DNA of 64,000 bases. Source: Myxococcales bacterium (GTDB lineage: Bacteria; Myxococcota_A; UBA9160; UBA4427). Below, piece after piece: positions 17,617-53,282 of this stretch. The stretch covers positions 43,754 to 107,753 of the forward strand of contig DUBZ01000041.1 of the NCBI GenBank assembly GCA_012960035.1, read 5' to 3'. The position numbers and the translations under genes were made by a program. Position 1 is the stretch's first letter. Every line of letters begins with the position of its first letter. The notes beneath the pieces were generated by a model, which saw only the letters and a program-made list of their open reading frames with translations, made no database searches and was not told where the DNA came from.

Positions 17617-18636
17617 TTACAGCACAAACTCCGCCATGGTCTGCATGGCATCCGGATCGGTACTGCCGAGGAGCAAGCTCGTTACCGGGCTTTCCCGCCA
17701 TGCATCGAGGCGCTCCTTGATGCGTTCCTTCGGACCACAAAGTGAGATCTCGTCGGCGAATGCATCCGGAACGGCGGCGATGGCTTCGGCGCGTTTGCCG
17801 TCGAGAAAAAGCTCCTGAATCTTCAATGCTTCTTGCTCGTATCCCATGCGACCCATGAGTTCCATGTGGAAGTTTCGGCTTTTTGCCCCCATGCCGCCGA
17901 TGTAAAACCCGAGCATGGCTTTGACTGGCATCAGCGCTTGCTCGAGGTCGTCGACCATGTTGACCATCACGAGCTGAGAAATCTCGAAACCCGGCTTCAT
18001 GTCCTTGAGGGAGTCTGCGTAGATTTCAGGGCGAAACGGGTTCGTGTAAAGCGGCAGCCAGCCGTCCGCAATTTCCGCGGCAAGCGCCACGTTCTTCGGG
18101 CCTTCGGCTCCCATGAAAATCGGGAGGTCGGCGCGTAGGGGATGGGTAATCGAGCGAAGCGGTTTGCCGAGTTGCCAGGCGCCTTCACCCTTGTACGGGA
18201 GTGGGTAGTGGGGGCCGTCACTCGTGACCGGTCCTTCGCGCGCGAGGACCTGACGAATGATGCCAATGTACTCGCGCGTGCGTGAAAGAGGTTTCGAGAA
18301 AGGCTGTCCGTACCAACCTTCGACGACCTGGGGGCCGGAAACACCGAGTCCCAAAATCATGCGCCCTTTGGAAAGGTGGTCGAGGGTGAGTGCGGCCATG
18401 GCGGTCGCCGTGGGGGTTCGCGCAGAAAGCTGCACGACAGAAGTGCCAAGACGAATCTTCGACGTGTGCGCGCCGACCCAGGAAAGCGGCGTAAAGGCGT
18501 CAGACCCCCAGGCTTCAGCGGTCCAAATCGAATCGAAACCAAGCTGTTCCGCGCGCTGCGCCGTTTCGACGACGTTGTCAGAGGGCTGCGCGCCCCAGTA
18601 TCCGAGTTGAAGACCGAGTTTGAGTTCTTGTGCCAT
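17617..18636 (-). CDS. LLM-class F420-dependent oxidoreductase
   Basis: 339 aa, a luciferase-like TIM barrel. Motifs are LGLQLGYWG at the start, a LGFDSIWTAEAWGSDAF block, and IRLGTSVVQLSARTPTATAMAA. GRMILGLGVSGPQVVEGWYG follows, with PIFMGAEGPKNVALAAEIADGWLP in the second half. The sequence resembles actinobacterial F420-dependent LLM proteins of the Rv3520c kind. The cofactor (F420 versus FMN) cannot be proved from sequence. Downstream is the TonB-receptor relic; upstream is a crotonase-family gene on the same strand, about 58 bp away, so the two may be co-transcribed in lipid or xenobiotic metabolism. Confidence 0.9.
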   Translation of the reverse strand: MAQELKLGLQLGYWGAQPSDNVVETAQRAEQLGFDSIWTAEAWGSDAFTPLSWVGAHTSKIRLGTSVVQLSARTPTATAMAALTLDHLSKGRMILGLGVSGPQVVEGWYGQPFSKPLSRTREYIGIIRQVLAREGPVTSDGPHYPLPYKGEGAWQLGKPLRSITHPLRADLPIFMGAEGPKNVALAAEIADGWLPLYTNPFRPEIYADSLKDMKPGFEISQLVMVNMVDDLEQALMPVKAMLGFYIGGMGAKSRNFHMELMGRMGYEQEALKIQELFLDGKRAEAIAAVPDAFADEISLCGPKERIKERLDAWRESPVTSLLLGSTDPDAMQTMAEFVL

Positions 18637-18694
18637 GACGAATGTTTCTCCTGGATGCAGTGGGATGTGTGCGTTGGGACGGCGAGGGCAGGGC

Positions 18695-19528
18695 CTACTT
18701 GTCAGCCTTAGCGCTCGGTGCGTAGGAAGGCGCTCGGCCTTCGACCTGGGCTTTCACCGTTTCGATCTGTTCAGGCTTTCCGATCAGAGCCTTTTGCAGT
18801 TGGGCTTCGAGGGAAAGCCCGTCGGCGTATTCGCCAACGACTGCGTCGTTGAGGAGTCGCTTTCCCGCTTGGACGGCGCTCGGAGATTTGCTCGCGATTT
18901 GCTCAGCAATCGCGCGAGCGTCTTCAAGGGGCTGATCACTCACTCGGGTAGCCAAGCCAAGTTCAACGGCCTCGACGCCAGACACGACGCGCCCGGTAAA
19001 GGTGAGTTCTTTGGCGACGTCGAGACGAGTCAAGTTGCGAAGGAGCTGGGTGCCCGCCATATCGGGGACCATGCCCCACTTGATTTCCATCACGCTCATG
19101 CGCGCGTCGGGCGCAATGATGCGGATGTCGGCGCCGAGCGCGATTTGCAAACCGCCGCCGTACGCAACGCCATGCACGGCTGCGATCACCGGGACGTTGA
19201 GGGTTTGCCATACCCAGCCGGGGAGTTGTGCGTAATTTGCAATGGAGCCTTCCGGCTTGTCGAAAAGATTGCGCGCGGAACCTGCATCGGTCCCACCGCC
19301 GCCCCCCTTCGCGGTCGCTGCGAAATTGCCCACATCGAGCCCGGCGCAGAAGCAGCGGCCCGCTCCGGACAACACCACGGCGCGCACATCCGGGTCGTCA
19401 TTGAGTGCGCGGCCCGCCTCGAAGATGGCTTGGAACATGGCGCCGTCGAGGGCGTTCATTTTGTCGGGACGGTTGAGCCGAACATCTGCAACGCCATTCT
19501 GAATATCGATAGACACGCGATCGGACAA
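18695..19528 (-). CDS. Enoyl-CoA hydratase/isomerase (crotonase) family protein
   Basis: 277 aa. The first oxyanion-hole block is VLSGAGRCFCAGLDVGNF and the second is HGVAYGGGLQIALGADIRI, both complete. EIKWGMVPDMAGTQLL follows in the place of the catalytic Glu region, then a long C-terminal helix set. In classical hydratases two Glu residues act; here the second catalytic area reads MVPDMAGT, as in dienoyl-CoA isomerase-like paralogues. The exact reaction is therefore open. It is followed at 58 bp by the LLM oxidoreductase gene. Confidence 0.88.
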   Translation of the reverse strand: MSDRVSIDIQNGVADVRLNRPDKMNALDGAMFQAIFEAGRALNDDPDVRAVVLSGAGRCFCAGLDVGNFAATAKGGGGGTDAGSARNLFDKPEGSIANYAQLPGWVWQTLNVPVIAAVHGVAYGGGLQIALGADIRIIAPDARMSVMEIKWGMVPDMAGTQLLRNLTRLDVAKELTFTGRVVSGVEAVELGLATRVSDQPLEDARAIAEQIASKSPSAVQAGKRLLNDAVVGEYADGLSLEAQLQKALIGKPEQIETVKAQVEGRAPSYAPSAKADK

Positions 19529-41609: not shown

Positions 41610-42929
41610 ATGGACAAAACTCCCTTCTATCTGCAGGGCAATTTCGGTCCGGTTGACGACGAGGTCGAAGCCTTCGATCTAAAAGTCGAGGGTGAGATCC
41701 CCGAGTATCTCGAGGGGATGTTCTTGCGCAACGGCCCAAACCCGACCCGTGGCGACCCGGGACATTGGTTTTTCGGCGACGGCATGATCCACGCCACCCG
41801 GCTCGAAGGAGGGCGCGCGTCGTGGTATCGCAACCGCTACGTCGACACGGCTTCGAGGCGCGGCGCACCGGCCATGCAACTGACCGAAGACTTGAAGTTC
41901 GACCATACCGTGGGTGTGTCGAATACCCACGTGGTGTCGCACGCGGGCAAGATCTTGGCCTTGGTCGAATCGTCGTATCCCGCAGAACTGGACCGCGAAC
42001 TCAATACCGTGGGGCCGCTTGATTTCGACGGCAAACTCACGACGTCGTTCACCGCGCACCCGAAGGTCTGCGCCAAGACGGGCGAGATGCTGGCGTTCGG
42101 GTACAGCGCGCTGCCGCCGTTCTTGACCTATCACCGCATCAGTCCCGATGGCACGCTGGTGCAAAGCGAAGAAATCAAAGTCCCCGGTTCGACCATGATG
42201 CACGATTTTTCGGTGACCGAGAACCACGTCGTGTTCATGGACCTTCCAATTGTCTTTAAAGCGGAGCAGGTTACGTCCGGCATGCCGTATCAGTGGGACG
42301 CGTCCTATGGTGCGCGGCTTGGTGTTATGCCCCGCAACGGTTCGAATGCCGACGTGGTTTGGATGGAGATCGAGCCGTGCTTCGTTTTTCATCCGATGAA
42401 CGCATACGAGCGCGATGGCAGGATCGTGATGGACGTTGTTCGCTACCCCGAGTTCATGTCGGGAGGACCGTTCGCGACGGACGCCGGTGAACTGTGGCGT
42501 TGGACGATTGATCTCGCCGCCCACATCGTAAAGGAAGAGAAGCTCGACGATCGAGCCACGGAATTTCCGCGCATCGACCCGCGCCGGGAATGCCTCGAGA
42601 ATCGCTACGGCTATGCAGTGCTAAACGGCAGCGGCAAAGGATTGAGCTTCGAAGGCCTGGTCAAGCACGACCTCGAACGCGGGACCAGCGAAGTGCACAA
42701 CTTCGGCCCCGGGGCCGCGCCGAGCGAGTGCGTGTTCGTGCCCGCCGGCCCAGACGCTGCCGAAGACGAGGGTGTCGTGATGGCGTACGTCTATCATGAA
42801 GACACCAACGCGAGCGAGTTTGTCGTGCTCGACGCCCAGAACTTCAGCAAGCCAGCGCTGGGAAGGGTCGCGTTGCCGCAGCGCGTTCCCTTCGGTTTCC
42901 ACGGAAGCTGGTCTCCAGACCCGCGGTAG
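41610..42929 (+). CDS. Carotenoid oxygenase (RPE65/CCD) family dioxygenase
   Basis: 439 aa. It begins eight bases after the glnS stop. The seven-bladed propeller family is clear from LRNGPNPTRGDPGHWFFGDGMIH in outline, and from the four iron-binding His. These are TAHPKVCAKTG, MMHDFSVTENHVVFMDLP, FVFHPMNAYE and the final FGFHGSW. It splits carotenoids, or related alkenes such as lignostilbenes, with O2. No carotenoid biosynthesis gene is in the window, so the substrate is open. Close spacing to glnS suggests shared transcription without a clear link in function. Confidence 0.92.
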   Translation: MDKTPFYLQGNFGPVDDEVEAFDLKVEGEIPEYLEGMFLRNGPNPTRGDPGHWFFGDGMIHATRLEGGRASWYRNRYVDTASRRGAPAMQLTEDLKFDHTVGVSNTHVVSHAGKILALVESSYPAELDRELNTVGPLDFDGKLTTSFTAHPKVCAKTGEMLAFGYSALPPFLTYHRISPDGTLVQSEEIKVPGSTMMHDFSVTENHVVFMDLPIVFKAEQVTSGMPYQWDASYGARLGVMPRNGSNADVVWMEIEPCFVFHPMNAYERDGRIVMDVVRYPEFMSGGPFATDAGELWRWTIDLAAHIVKEEKLDDRATEFPRIDPRRECLENRYGYAVLNGSGKGLSFEGLVKHDLERGTSEVHNFGPGAAPSECVFVPAGPDAAEDEGVVMAYVYHEDTNASEFVVLDAQNFSKPALGRVALPQRVPFGFHGSWSPDPR

Positions 42930-48772: not shown

Positions 48773-49783
48773 CTAGATCTCACGAATGGCAGGGATCAGG
48801 TCGGCAATTTCTTGGGCGTCAATGCCGTAAGGCACGAGGCTCACTCGGTCGACGGACGTTCCGTAGCGTTGGCGTAGTTTTTCGGGGATCTCTTCGACGG
48901 GGCCAACGAGGGCGATCTGCTCGAGCAAGTCGTCGTTGATCAGCGCCGGCATGTCCGCCCATCCGCCTTGCTTCGTCAGACGATTGAGTTCGGTTTGCAG
49001 TTCACCTTGGCCCACACTTTCGAGAACGCCGCGGTATGCGGGGGTCGAGCCGTAAAACGAAATCTGCGCCTTGGCGCCTCGCTTCGCTTGTTTGATAGCA
49101 GCGTCATCTTTACCACTCACCACAATGACCTGGGCCGAAATTTCGAACTCACTTCGCGGACGGCCCGAACTTTCGATGCCCGTAGTGAGCGACGGCATGG
49201 TCGTCTCGGCGAGAAACTCTTCGGTGTGGAACGGGTGCAGGAAGTACCCGTCCGCGACTTCGCCCGCGACCCGGGTCATGATCGGCCCGACACCCGCGAG
49301 AAAGATGGGCGGCGTGCCGTGCGGGTTCGGACCTGGATTGAAGAAGGGCGCCATCAACGTGTGGGTATAGAATTCGCCGCGATGGTCGAGCTTGTCGCCG
49401 GTTTCAAAGGTGTGCCAGATCGCGCGAATCGCGCTGATCATTTCCTTCATGCGTGCTGCAGGTTTCGACCACGGCATGCTGAAGCGACGTTCGATATGGG
49501 GCTTGATCTGTGAGCCGAGTCCGAGGATGAAGCGACCCTTCGAGTGAAGCTGAAGGTCGTAGCCGAGATTCGCAAGCGTCATCGGGTTGCGCGCGAACGC
49601 GACCGCGATTGCTGTAATGAGTTCGATGCGCTCGCTGCGTTCGGCCATCACGCAGATAGGAAGGAAGGGGTCATGGCGACCTTCGAAGATGAATGCGCCG
49701 TCGTAGCCTTGGTTCTCGAGGGAAACGCTTGCCGGGCCCGCATCGCGCGGGTCTTCGACCATCACTGCGCCGTCAACTTTCAT
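48773..49783 (-). CDS. LLM-class F420-dependent oxidoreductase, MSMEG_2256-type
   Basis: 336 aa. Luciferase-like barrel with MKVDGAVMVEDPRDAG at the start. AENQGYDGAFIFEGRHDPFLP-type wording (here LENQGYDGAFIFEGRHDPF) comes next, then ITAIAVAFARNPMTLANLGYDLQ and GRFILGLGSQIKPHIERRF. PIFLAGVGPIMTRVAGEVADGYF lies in the second half. The last three are hallmarks of the TIGR03617-type LLM group from mycobacteria. It is divergent from the acyl-CoA ligase/thiolase/DUF35 operon, which suggests a shared catabolic role. Cofactor and substrate are inferred only. Confidence 0.9.
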   Translation of the reverse strand: MKVDGAVMVEDPRDAGPASVSLENQGYDGAFIFEGRHDPFLPICVMAERSERIELITAIAVAFARNPMTLANLGYDLQLHSKGRFILGLGSQIKPHIERRFSMPWSKPAARMKEMISAIRAIWHTFETGDKLDHRGEFYTHTLMAPFFNPGPNPHGTPPIFLAGVGPIMTRVAGEVADGYFLHPFHTEEFLAETTMPSLTTGIESSGRPRSEFEISAQVIVVSGKDDAAIKQAKRGAKAQISFYGSTPAYRGVLESVGQGELQTELNRLTKQGGWADMPALINDDLLEQIALVGPVEEIPEKLRQRYGTSVDRVSLVPYGIDAQEIADLIPAIREI

Positions 49784-50024
49784 GGGAACCTCCTAGTTTG
49801 GGGCAAATCATCCTATGGCATTGGGTTCCGGTTCGCTTGAGGTTCCTGCGAACAAGAAGCTTTGCGGTATGGTCAATCGACTCGCGTTTTTGTGCGCGGG
49901 TCGCGCCGCAAACCATGTCGGTCTGGGCCGTTTATTCCTCGCATGTTGTACGCGCCGGAAATACGCGGCGCCGGCGCGCGAGGCAATCCGTGTTCGTGGT
50001 CTAAGTGAGTGCTCCGAGGTAGTG

Positions 50025-51620
50025 GTGTCCAACAAGGCGACGATTTCGCAATGTGTTTCGAACCTGGCAGTAACCCAGGGCGATGCGCGCGCGTTTTCGA
50101 CTTCCGAGGGCTCCGTTAGCTGGCGTGCTTATGACGAGGCCGCGAATGAACTTGCGCGCGCATTGGTCCACCTCGGTGTTGGTGTGGGAGACCGCGTTGG
50201 CGTGTTGCTCCCCGACGGCCCCGGTGTGCATGTCGCTTTCCTTGCGATCGAACGCGCGGGGGCGGTGATCGTCGGAGCGGGCGCGCGTTCGGGTGTCAAA
50301 GAGCTTGTGCACTTGTTCGGACTTACCCAGTGCACGGTCTTGATTAGCGCGGCCGAGCATCAGGGCCTTGGCGCAGTTGCATTGCGAGCGGAGCTCGCTG
50401 AAGCGGACGTTTCGCTAACCCTTCATTTGATCGTCGACTCTGAATCGGGCCGTCAGTCCGAGCCCCTTTCAGAGACTGCGGGCATGGATGAAGAGGACGC
50501 GGCGGCGAGGCGTCACGATCCCGACGATATCTGGCTCTTGAACTCGACTTCGGGCACGACGGGGATGCCCAAGTGCGTCGTGCATGACCAGTCGCGCTGG
50601 TTTGTCTTCCACGACTTTGCGGTCGAAGCGGGCCAGCTCGATCAGAACGACGTGTTCATGAGTGTCGTGCCGGCGCCGTTCGGCTTCGGAATCTGGACGG
50701 CCCACGTGACTCCGGTCTTGCTCGGCGTTCCGACGGTCTTGATGACAGGCTTCGACGCAGATGCCGCCCTGGACTTGATTGAACAACATCGGGTTACGGT
50801 CCTCGCGGCCGTATCGACGCAATTCATCATGATGTTGAACAGCGCGAAAATCGACTCTTGCGACCTGTCGTCGTTGCGGGTCTTGTTTACCGGCGGCGAA
50901 GCTGTTCCCCGTGATCGCGCGTCGGTGTTTGAAGAGAAGACCGGGGCCAAGGTGTTGCAGTTCTACGGCTCGAACGAAGTGGGTGCGGTGAGCCGTACGA
51001 CGCTTGACGATTCGAGTGACCGGCGTTGGACTACGGCGGGGCGCGTGATCAAAGAAATGAAAGTGCGCTTGTTTGACGAACAAGGTGCGGACGTCACGCA
51101 TACCGGCCGTGGGCAGCCTGGCTGTCTGGGCCCGACGCTGAGTCAAGGGTACTACGGGGACCCGCAGGCGAACGCAAAGCTATATCGCGACGACGGTTGG
51201 ATGATGCTCGGGGACATCGTCACCATCGACGATGAAGGCTACTTGACCGTGGTTGGACGTACGGATGACTTCATTATCCGCGGCGGCAAAAACATCAGCG
51301 CCGCTGCCGTCGAAGAACAAGTTGGCACCCATCCGCGGGTCGCGCATGTCGGAGTCGTTGCGATGCCAGACCCCGTGTTCGGCGAGCGGGTTTGTGCATT
51401 CGTTGAATTGGACGGAAGGTCCGCGCTTGATTTGAATACGCTCTGCGCTTACTTGCGGGAACACGGGACGTCGAAGGAATACCTCCCGGAGCATTTGGTT
51501 GTACTAGACGCCTTGCCTCGGGCCGCGGGTGGGAAAATTGCAAAGGCCGAGCTTTGTTCACACGTTGCTGCGCTGAGCAATAAACTGGATTCAGCAACCT
51601 GCACTCAAGGAAAAGATTGA
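50025..51620 (+). CDS. AMP-forming acyl-CoA ligase (second)
   Basis: 531 aa from the GTG at 50025 behind GAGG; the track runs to 49815 but that leader is not family-like. Motifs are LLNSTSGTTGMPKCVVHDQ (P-loop), FYGSNEVGAVSRTTLDD, and GWMMLGDIVTIDDEGYLTVVGRTDDFIIRGGKNIS. The C-terminal end, LPRAAGGKIAKAEL, has the catalytic Lys. It makes acyl-CoA from a carboxylic acid. Its stop is directly followed by the ATG of the thiolase-like gene (TGAATG), then DUF35, so it is the first gene of a three-gene operon. Confidence 0.92.
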   Translation: MSNKATISQCVSNLAVTQGDARAFSTSEGSVSWRAYDEAANELARALVHLGVGVGDRVGVLLPDGPGVHVAFLAIERAGAVIVGAGARSGVKELVHLFGLTQCTVLISAAEHQGLGAVALRAELAEADVSLTLHLIVDSESGRQSEPLSETAGMDEEDAAARRHDPDDIWLLNSTSGTTGMPKCVVHDQSRWFVFHDFAVEAGQLDQNDVFMSVVPAPFGFGIWTAHVTPVLLGVPTVLMTGFDADAALDLIEQHRVTVLAAVSTQFIMMLNSAKIDSCDLSSLRVLFTGGEAVPRDRASVFEEKTGAKVLQFYGSNEVGAVSRTTLDDSSDRRWTTAGRVIKEMKVRLFDEQGADVTHTGRGQPGCLGPTLSQGYYGDPQANAKLYRDDGWMMLGDIVTIDDEGYLTVVGRTDDFIIRGGKNISAAAVEEQVGTHPRVAHVGVVAMPDPVFGERVCAFVELDGRSALDLNTLCAYLREHGTSKEYLPEHLVVLDALPRAAGGKIAKAELCSHVAALSNKLDSATCTQGKD

Positions 51621-52829
51621 ATGAATCAAGATGAGGCTTGGGGGACTGCGGGGACGATTGAAGACGTGTCTGGCCAGGTGGCGATCGTGGGCGTCGGAGA
51701 TGCGATCTACCAGCGAGCATCGGGAAAGAATGGACTCGAACTCGCGATCGAAGCGACCGAGCGCGCGCTGGCGGACAGCGGGCTCGCTCCGGGTGATATC
51801 GACGGAATTATGGTAACCCCGTACATGGGCGCTCAACTCGACGCCGATGCGTACCGTGCTCACTTCGGTACCGAGCAAGAAATCTGGATGTCGAACAAAG
51901 GCGGTGCCATGACGTGGGCCGCGACGGCACCGGCCGTCGCCGCGGCGGCGATTCGCGAGGGCAAGGCGAGTGCGATCTTGAACTTGTTCGCAGTCGACTG
52001 GTTTAGCCAGAAGGGAAGCGATAGCGACGAAGGACCTGGCAAGTTTCACGGCCAGGAACGCATGAAGGCCAACTTCGAATTGCCTCACGGTTGGTTTCCG
52101 CAGCCTGTTTACTTCGCCACGATCGCACGTCGACACATGTGGCAGTACGGAACCCGGGAAGAAGATTTAGGCGCGCTCGCGGTCACCTGTCGCAGACACG
52201 CGAACGGGCATCCTGACGCAATTACGCGGGACCGAACATTGAGCCTCGACGAATACCTGGCTCGCCCGATGATGGTAGACCCACTGCGCATGGAAGACTG
52301 CTGCCTTATTTCCGATGGCGGTGGCGCGTACATCATGACGTCAGTAGAACGCGCCAGAGATCTCGCGAAACCGTTGGTCGTGGTTGAAGGGGTGTCGGAC
52401 GGCTATTCGAATAGCGGCGCCTACTGGAGTCAGCAGGGCAATTTCACTGCTTCGCCTCAAGTCTATTCCGCACCCAAGGCGTTCGAGATGGCAGGGCTGG
52501 TACCGAGTGATGTCGACGTGCTGACGCTATACGACCCGTTTTCAATCGTGGCGTTGATGCAGATCGAAGACATGGGGTTCTGCGAGAAGGGTGGGGCGAG
52601 TGAGTTTGTTGCCGGAACCAACCTGCAATACGACAGCCCGGGCCTCGCGTACAACACCCACGGTGGCTTGCTCTCCCATGCCTACGTGCTCGGTATCTCG
52701 CACGTCAATGAAATCGTCCGACAACTGCGGGGCGAAGCTGCCAACCAGGTCAGCGATGCAAACGTTGGAGTCTACGGTGGATACACCGGACACATGGCGA
52801 GCACGTTGATTTTGAAGTCCGGCAGTTGA
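51621..52829 (+). CDS. Thiolase-fold protein lacking the nucleophile Cys (Ltp2-like retro-aldolase candidate)
   Basis: 402 aa. The thiolase fold is seen from VSGQVAIVGVGDAIYQRAS, LALADSG-type helix (ATERALADSGLAPGDIDG), the loop EIWMSNKGGAMTWAATAPAVA, and the end NTHGGLLSHAYVLGISHVNE and YGGYTGHMASTLIL. In true thiolases the loop has a Cys in the x-C-x-S-G position; here it reads S-N-K-G-G. That is the state of Ltp2-type lipid-transfer proteins, which cleave C-C bonds of steroid side chains by a retro-aldol step and need a DUF35 partner. A DUF35 gene follows at once, which supports this reading. Substrate is inferred. Confidence 0.85.
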   Translation: MNQDEAWGTAGTIEDVSGQVAIVGVGDAIYQRASGKNGLELAIEATERALADSGLAPGDIDGIMVTPYMGAQLDADAYRAHFGTEQEIWMSNKGGAMTWAATAPAVAAAAIREGKASAILNLFAVDWFSQKGSDSDEGPGKFHGQERMKANFELPHGWFPQPVYFATIARRHMWQYGTREEDLGALAVTCRRHANGHPDAITRDRTLSLDEYLARPMMVDPLRMEDCCLISDGGGAYIMTSVERARDLAKPLVVVEGVSDGYSNSGAYWSQQGNFTASPQVYSAPKAFEMAGLVPSDVDVLTLYDPFSIVALMQIEDMGFCEKGGASEFVAGTNLQYDSPGLAYNTHGGLLSHAYVLGISHVNEIVRQLRGEAANQVSDANVGVYGGYTGHMASTLILKSGS

Positions 52830-52853
52830 GGTCGACGCGATGAGGAGCGAACG

Positions 52854-53282
52854 ATGAGTCAATCACCGTTACCCGAAACAGACTGGGATCTCACCCGGGC
52901 ATTTTGGCAAGCCGCGAAAGAGAATGAGTTCGTGATGCCGCGCTGCGCGGGTTGTGAGCGCTACGTCTGGTATCCAGAAGAACAATGCCCGCACTGCGGC
53001 GCCGGCGACGTCCTTTGGGTTCAAGTCGAAGGAAGAGGCCTGCTTTTTTCATGGGCCGAAGTGCGGCACCCGCTGCACCCCCCGTATAAGAACCAGCTTC
53101 CCTACATCACGGGGATCGTGGCGCTGGAGGTCGATCCACGCGTCCACTATGTGACCCGGATCGTCGAATGTACGACGCGCGAACTTGTGATCGAGATGCC
53201 GATGGAAGTTGTCTATCGCGAACTTTCGTTTCACGAGGTCGAGGGCGCCGTGGTTGCGCCGGTATTCCGTCCAGTTGCCTGA
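52854..53282 (+). CDS. Zn-ribbon/OB-fold DUF35 protein
   Basis: 142 aa. The N-terminal zinc ribbon has CAGCERYVWYPEEQCPHCG, with all four Cys, and the following OB-fold has the DUF35 strands LFSWAEVRHPLHPPYK and LPYITGIVALEV. Such proteins bind acyl-CoA and complete the active site of thiolase-like partners (SCP2/Ltp2 type). The gene is 24 bases behind the thiolase-like gene. Together they probably form a heteromeric aldolase or acyl-transfer complex. Confidence 0.92.
   Translation: MSQSPLPETDWDLTRAFWQAAKENEFVMPRCAGCERYVWYPEEQCPHCGAGDVLWVQVEGRGLLFSWAEVRHPLHPPYKNQLPYITGIVALEVDPRVHYVTRIVECTTRELVIEMPMEVVYRELSFHEVEGAVVAPVFRPVA

Follow-up and report, generated by a model that had tools for sequence, protein, structure and literature searches.

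Two described coenzyme A (CoA)-dependent aldolases, Ltp2 of Thermomonospora curvata and Sal of Comamonas testosteroni, have a thiolase fold without the nucleophilic cysteine and a DUF35 partner. In T. curvata Ltp2 (TcLtp2), Tyr294 of a YDHF motif acts as the base and Tyr344 as the acid, with His296 in the oxyanion hole; replacement of His296 causes only a 14-fold loss (PMC12329534, the Sal paper, which summarizes the work on Ltp2). True thiolases have histidine at both tyrosine positions, together with the cysteine nucleophile. In the ibuprofen pathway, CoA ligation and dihydrodiol formation are followed by retro-aldolase cleavage to propionyl-CoA and 4-isobutylcatechol, and an ipfD insertion mutant does not grow on ibuprofen (PMC9195938). 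The gene order on plasmid pIBU218 of Rhizorhabdus wittichii is ring dioxygenase (ipfAB), SCP-x (ipfD), DUF35 (ipfE) and ligase (ipfF), where the gene names were assigned by us from order and products. Here we analyse an operon of a ligase, a thiolase-fold protein and a DUF35 protein in a 64,000-nucleotide stretch (the window) of contig DUBZ01000041.1, from a 5.5-Mb draft genome of a Myxococcales bacterium whose nearest named relatives are metagenome-assembled Myxococcota/'Deltaproteobacteria'. The thiolase-fold protein and its DUF35 partner probably constitute a Cys-less, SCP-x-type retro-aldolase that acts on CoA esters and would cleave its substrate after activation by the ligase.

The three genes occupy positions 50025-53282 of the window on the + strand, with gaps of 0 and 24 bp. 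The AMP-forming acyl-CoA ligase (50025..51620, +) has 531 amino acids from a GTG start, with an alternative in-frame ATG upstream at 49815, and carries AMP-binding (PF00501, E 5e-65) and AMP-binding_C (PF13193) domains. Directly after its end at 51620 comes the ATG of the thiolase-like gene (51621..52829, +; 402 amino acids; Thiolase_C_1 PF22691, 127 bits), and the ATG of the DUF35 gene (52854..53282, +; 142 amino acids) lies 24 bp past the stop of the latter. The DUF35 protein stands alone and comprises a zinc ribbon and an OB fold (zf-ChsH2 and OB_ChsH2_C). Its ribbon, C-x2-C-x10-C-x2-C (Cys31, Cys34, Cys45 and Cys48; 52944..52997, +), has the spacing of the TcChsH2 DUF35 domain (PMC12329534), and the C4 form is present in 57 of 63 locus copies. 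An initial annotation, made from the sequence, had proposed a ligase/Cys-less thiolase/DUF35 operon with a divergent F420-type luciferase-like (LLM) gene; all the open reading frames were found in place, and their Pfam and TIGR families agree with it.

Fold and active site of the thiolase-like protein

The best sequence match of the thiolase-fold protein in the PDB is TcLtp2 (6ok1_A, E 1.4e-53), and that of the DUF35 protein is the DUF35 partner of Ltp2 in the same structure (6ok1_B). An AlphaFold2 model of the thiolase-fold protein, built with 38 natural sequences, had a predicted local distance difference test score (pLDDT) of 88 and a predicted template modelling score (pTM) of 0.92. Foldseek returned 6ok1, Ltp2-ChsH2(DUF35), as the best solved match of this model (E 1.7e-36, TM 0.82), followed by Sal-Shy(DUF35) and then 4U4E. 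The comparison with Ltp2-type aldolases that the initial annotation had drawn is thus borne out: among solved structures, Ltp2-DUF35 comes nearest in sequence as well as in fold. The tyrosine base and the tyrosine acid, to which that annotation had not referred, are both kept.

The loop and helix start at the thiolase nucleophile site read SNKGGAM (codons 91-97; 51891..51911, +). In a HHalign profile alignment of the clade against thiolases, Met97, two residues past the GG, aligns with the nucleophilic cysteine, and an ungapped stretch of the pairwise alignment to TcLtp2 puts Met97 at the same position; one small MAFFT alignment placed Gly95 there instead. Across the clade the residue at the cysteine position is Met in 34 of 36 members and Ala in the other two. 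The initial annotation had singled out SNKGG in the active loop. These residues are present at 91-95, but SNK is not a conserved element, since orthologues keep only the GG and precede it with K, N, E, D, Q, R, W and other residues, and the cysteine position lies two residues further on.

The second motif is YDPF (codons 304-307; 52530..52541, +), which replaces the HDCF or HDAF of thiolases. Tyr304 corresponds to the Ltp2 base Tyr294, and Pro306 takes the place of the oxyanion-hole His296. By alignment, the His of the thiolase GHP motif is replaced by Tyr355 (codon 355; 52683..52685, +), the equivalent of the Ltp2 catalytic acid Tyr344 (NTHGGLLSHAYVLG). Both tyrosines are Tyr in 36/36 clade members. 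Y, D and F of the motif are likewise invariant, and its third position is Pro in 31 members and Cys in five, all of them Halieaceae/Spongiibacteraceae. The alignment shows no cysteine at the nucleophile position or in the YDPF motif of the window protein. Its four cysteines (190, 227, 228 and 321) lie away from both thiolase cysteine positions, and three of them (227, 228 and 321) are shared with Ltp2. We conclude that the active site is Cys-less, as first proposed.

Clade and gene neighbourhood

In a maximum-likelihood tree the 26 members of the window clade form a single group (100/100 support, stem 1.27, with a bootstrap that had not fully settled); true thiolases, the Ltp2 group and the Sal/4U4E group all branch separately from it. 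Of 80 genomes of the order, 16 encode orthologues with these features, as do about 50 named contigs, which argues that the features of the locus are not due to chance. The named contigs place members in Acidimicrobiia, Halieaceae and Spongiibacteraceae as well as in one Binatia genome and one Sphingomonas. Among plasmids, a search returned relatives at 37% identity or less and no clade member. By sequence, the clade is a separate and apparently unassayed branch within an enzyme type already described. Another frequent Cys-less group of the order (L022-L038, L124 and L125) combines YDCF with His at the second tyrosine position (IYDCFT / SEAHVL) and fits neither the Ltp2 nor the Sal pattern.

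We counted neighbours at 53 clade loci by tblastn. The DUF35 gene follows the thiolase-like gene at 52 of these, and the contig ends there at the remaining one, so the pairing named in the initial annotation is near-invariant. Amidohydro_2 genes lie near 25 of the loci and CaiB genes near 24, and KshA-type Rieske oxygenases flank all six proteobacterial loci. The latter (L091, L092, L094, L095, L104 and L087) come from proteobacteria that are cultured or named, among them Parahaliea, Sediminihaliea and Sphingomonas formosensis. Some of them are also near genes for TauD, P450, fatty-acid/sterol-hydroxylase-like, short-chain dehydrogenase/reductase (SDR) and TonB receptor proteins, and the whole looks like an uncharacterized catabolic cluster, possibly of terpenoid- or steroid-like kind.

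The ligase and the LLM gene are much less constant companions. The divergent LLM neighbour (48773..49783, -) is an F420-type oxidoreductase (Bac_luciferase; TIGR03617, 452 bits against a cut-off of 278). It adjoins the pair only in this genus, where congeners have it without any ligase, and any functional link to the pair is putative. We rejected it as an essential pathway gene: a congener (G003) has a 74% identical copy and no such pair in its genome. The window ligase stands beside the pair in the window species only. Its homologues in relatives (49-60% identity) lie at other sites, several in clusters with TetR, aldehyde dehydrogenase (ALDH), acyl-CoA dehydrogenase and SDR genes, and outside the genus both LLM and ligase are generally absent beside the pair. 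At four other loci, an AMP-ligase with 23-26% identity to the ligase probes used lies directly upstream in the same direction, and two of these are ordered Rieske-ligase-thiolase-DUF35. The compact pathway of ligase and LLM gene suggested at first is therefore not a conserved unit, the LLM being a genus-level and the ligase a species-level feature, but the recurrence of unrelated ligases upstream supports the broader scheme in which an acid is first activated and then cleaved.

The third-codon-position GC content (GC3) of the ligase, thiolase-like and DUF35 genes is 0.65-0.69, against 0.73 +/- 0.03 in 20 other genes of the window. Together with patchy presence, this slightly low value is suggestive, and only that, of horizontal acquisition of the three genes. 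Elsewhere in the window we noted an RPE65-type carotenoid cleavage oxygenase gene (41610-42929; PF03055, 426 bits) and, at 17617-19459, another LLM gene with an adjoining enoyl-CoA hydratase/isomerase gene on the same strand.

Proposed reaction and competing explanations

We favour a retro-aldolase because Ltp2-DUF35 is the closest match for both proteins and by fold, and because both catalytic tyrosines are invariant. From these residues and from the analogues, we infer the chemistry, its direction and the order of steps. The ligase would convert a carboxylic acid to its CoA ester, and other enzymes, not all encoded at the locus, would hydroxylate the beta carbon, which is probably part of a ring, so that the compound cleaved is probably a beta-hydroxyacyl-CoA with its hydroxyl on a ring carbon. 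Tyr304 would abstract the proton of the beta-hydroxyl, upon which the alpha-beta carbon bond would break, and Tyr355 would reprotonate the resulting enolate. A ketone (or aldehyde) and a short acyl-CoA would be released, and the DUF35 protein would serve as a structural subunit shaping the substrate cleft. The Rieske oxygenases that flank the proteobacterial loci recall ipf and speak for the same reading.

Several observations weigh against a retro-aldolase. With Pro306, the side chain that contributes to the oxyanion hole of Ltp2 is gone, and at the cysteine position Met97 takes up more room than the Gly found in Ltp2 and Sal, so the pocket differs from theirs. Confidence in the model is lowest in the loop by Tyr355, where residues 352-354 fall below a pLDDT of 50. 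No hydratase or oxygenase clearly able to make the beta-hydroxyl is encoded in the operon, and many relatives pair the protein with Amidohydro_2 and CaiB instead of a ligase, which suggests that the pathway may differ between lineages. We also found no report of activity for any clade member in the literature. On the first of these points, a third motif residue other than His has a precedent and is compatible with retro-aldol chemistry, because IpfD has YDAF.

The same proteins could instead work in synthesis, catalysing the aldol addition of an acyl-CoA to a ketone or aldehyde on the way to a natural product, as their fold relatives with DUF35 include the C-C bond-forming PhlABC and the archaeal 3-hydroxy-3-methylglutaryl-CoA (HMG-CoA) complex. 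We consider this unlikely, since the genes next to the pair in relatives (ligase, Rieske, P450, CaiB, Amidohydro_2 and TonB receptor) have a catabolic look, and the neighbours scanned included no carrier protein, polyketide synthase (PKS) or non-ribosomal peptide synthetase (NRPS) gene.

A thiolase or acyltransferase with a different nucleophilic residue, or a decarboxylase of malonyl-type thioesters, seems quite improbable. The fold is that of a thiolase, NCBIfam places the window protein in thiolase/lipid-transfer protein subfamilies, albeit below cut-off, and TbSLP, which has a Sal-type active site, shows trace malonyl-CoA decarboxylase activity (PMC12329534). Yet the protein has no cysteine at the nucleophile position or in its HDCF-equivalent motif, and every clade member has Tyr instead of His at the two remaining catalytic positions. 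A scaffold without catalytic activity, or a CoA-binding regulator, would account for the lost nucleophile and the replaced oxyanion His. It is nevertheless very unlikely, given that sequences from several phyla, down to 51% identity, keep the second Tyr and the H of NTHGG along with the Y, D and F of the motif.

An identification of the window protein with Ltp2, as the organism's own steroid C17 side-chain aldolase, is already largely refuted and highly improbable: Ltp2-DUF35 is its nearest solved structure and both tyrosines are kept, but it is only 35% identical to TcLtp2, its motif is YDPF where Ltp2 has YDHF, no MaoC gene adjoins it, and TcLtp2 groups with other host paralogues in a different clade. 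The host genome holds about 20 matches to the family, and its paralogues on contigs 70, 99 and 12 are 69, 63 and 53% identical to TcLtp2, respectively. The first two adjoin MaoC-DUF35 (ChsH2-type) genes, forming two MaoC-DUF35 + Ltp2 operons (L155, contig 70, 4185-6838; L156, contig 99, 5230-7968) with an FAD-dependent oxidoreductase or ferredoxin nearby; the L156 copy has YDAF in place of YDHF. These operons are candidates for steroid side-chain breakdown in this group, a topic on which we found no paper that names Myxococcota. The C17 side-chain role thus already has candidates elsewhere in the genome. The window protein probably acts on a substrate other than the steroid C17 side chain. A retro-aldolase, as the initial annotation had suggested, is thus the best reading of the residues, the DUF35 partner and the structure match, and its equation with Ltp2 is what fails.

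On contig 12 (L157, 4100-9314 and 10037-11200), Amidohydro_2, double CaiB (838 amino acids), DUF35 and Ltp2-like Cys-less genes stand in a row, with a further Amidohydro_2 gene. This paralogue belongs to the Ltp2 group in the tree and yet has the Amidohydro_2/double CaiB/DUF35 set seen around the window clade in other phyla, so the cassette has become associated with two distinct branches of this protein family. A literature search for an Amidohydro_2/CaiB/DUF35/F420 cluster returned nothing relevant.

Profile libraries assign the group to thiolase or lipid-transfer subfamilies, and the active-site residues argue against a thiolase. If this is a true aldolase clade, dozens of genomes hold a mis-named carbon-carbon lyase. 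Cultured carriers open to knock-out are Parahaliea mediterranea, Parahaliea aestuarii, Sediminihaliea albiluteola and Sphingomonas formosensis.

Relation to described aldolases and thiolases

The closest working analogue of the operon layout is ipfDEF, which likewise joins a Cys-less SCP-x protein, DUF35 and an AMP-ligase and gives the ligase-SCPx-DUF35 arrangement a worked example. IpfD has no nucleophilic cysteine, keeps the second Tyr and has, like the window protein, a YDxF motif with a small non-His residue. It is 32% identical to the window protein, and its long branch falls outside the window clade as well as the Ltp2 clade. The ligases are distant (30%), IpfE lacks the zinc cysteine set, and ipf has a two-subunit ring dioxygenase alongside, whereas no ring-hydroxylating Rieske oxygenase lies beside the pair in the window neighbourhood. 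A second SCP-x/DUF35 pair on pIBU218 (L165:939-2503) has the full Ltp2 pattern (YDHF, 59% to TcLtp2) and lies by enoyl-CoA hydratase and CaiB genes.

Ltp2-ChsH2(DUF35) (PDB 6OK1) shares with the window pair the fold, the missing cysteine, the tyrosine base and acid, and a DUF35 with a C4 zinc ribbon. It differs in having YDHF and a Gly at the cysteine position, where the window protein has YDPF and Met, and in its clade. In ChsH1-ChsH2-Ltp2, which removes the C17-OH propionyl-CoA side chain by retro-aldol cleavage, DUF35 is fused to MaoC within ChsH2 and ChsH1 is adjacent; the window DUF35 has no such fusion, and a ligase is part of the operon. The bile acid aldolase Sal-Shy(DUF35) (PDB 9MYR) also has the thiolase fold, a DUF35 partner, no nucleophilic cysteine and a Tyr in its YD motif, but uses Cys304 as the acid (YDCY), has Gln at the second tyrosine position and a C3H1 zinc site in DUF35, and falls in a separate clade. 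The putative thiolase 4U4E of Sphaerobacter thermophilus is likewise Cys-less and differs by YDSF, His at the second tyrosine position and its clade. SCP-2 thiolases, BbsAB and archaeal acetoacetyl-CoA thiolase have the same fold and in part a DUF35 partner; their Cys nucleophile, HDxF and GHP are all missing from the window protein.

Tentatively, then, the window protein may represent one more line of CoA-dependent retro-aldolases, next to those of Ltp2 and Sal, marked by Tyr/Tyr catalysis, by Pro (or Cys) as third residue of the motif and by Met where the cysteine is lost. Such a line would extend over Myxococcota, Actinomycetota (Acidimicrobiia), Binatota and Proteobacteria and would help to degrade ring-shaped acids, though not steroid C17 side chains, as part of cassettes that contain Amidohydro_2 and double CaiB, Rieske oxygenases or ligases. 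If so, the third residue of YDxF would be variable (His, Cys, Ala or Pro) across thiolase-fold aldolases. The YDPF/Tyr combination of the window protein matches none of the patterns of Ltp2 (YDHF/Tyr), Sal (YDCY/Gln), the 4U4E group (YDSF/His) and the YDCF/His paralogues.

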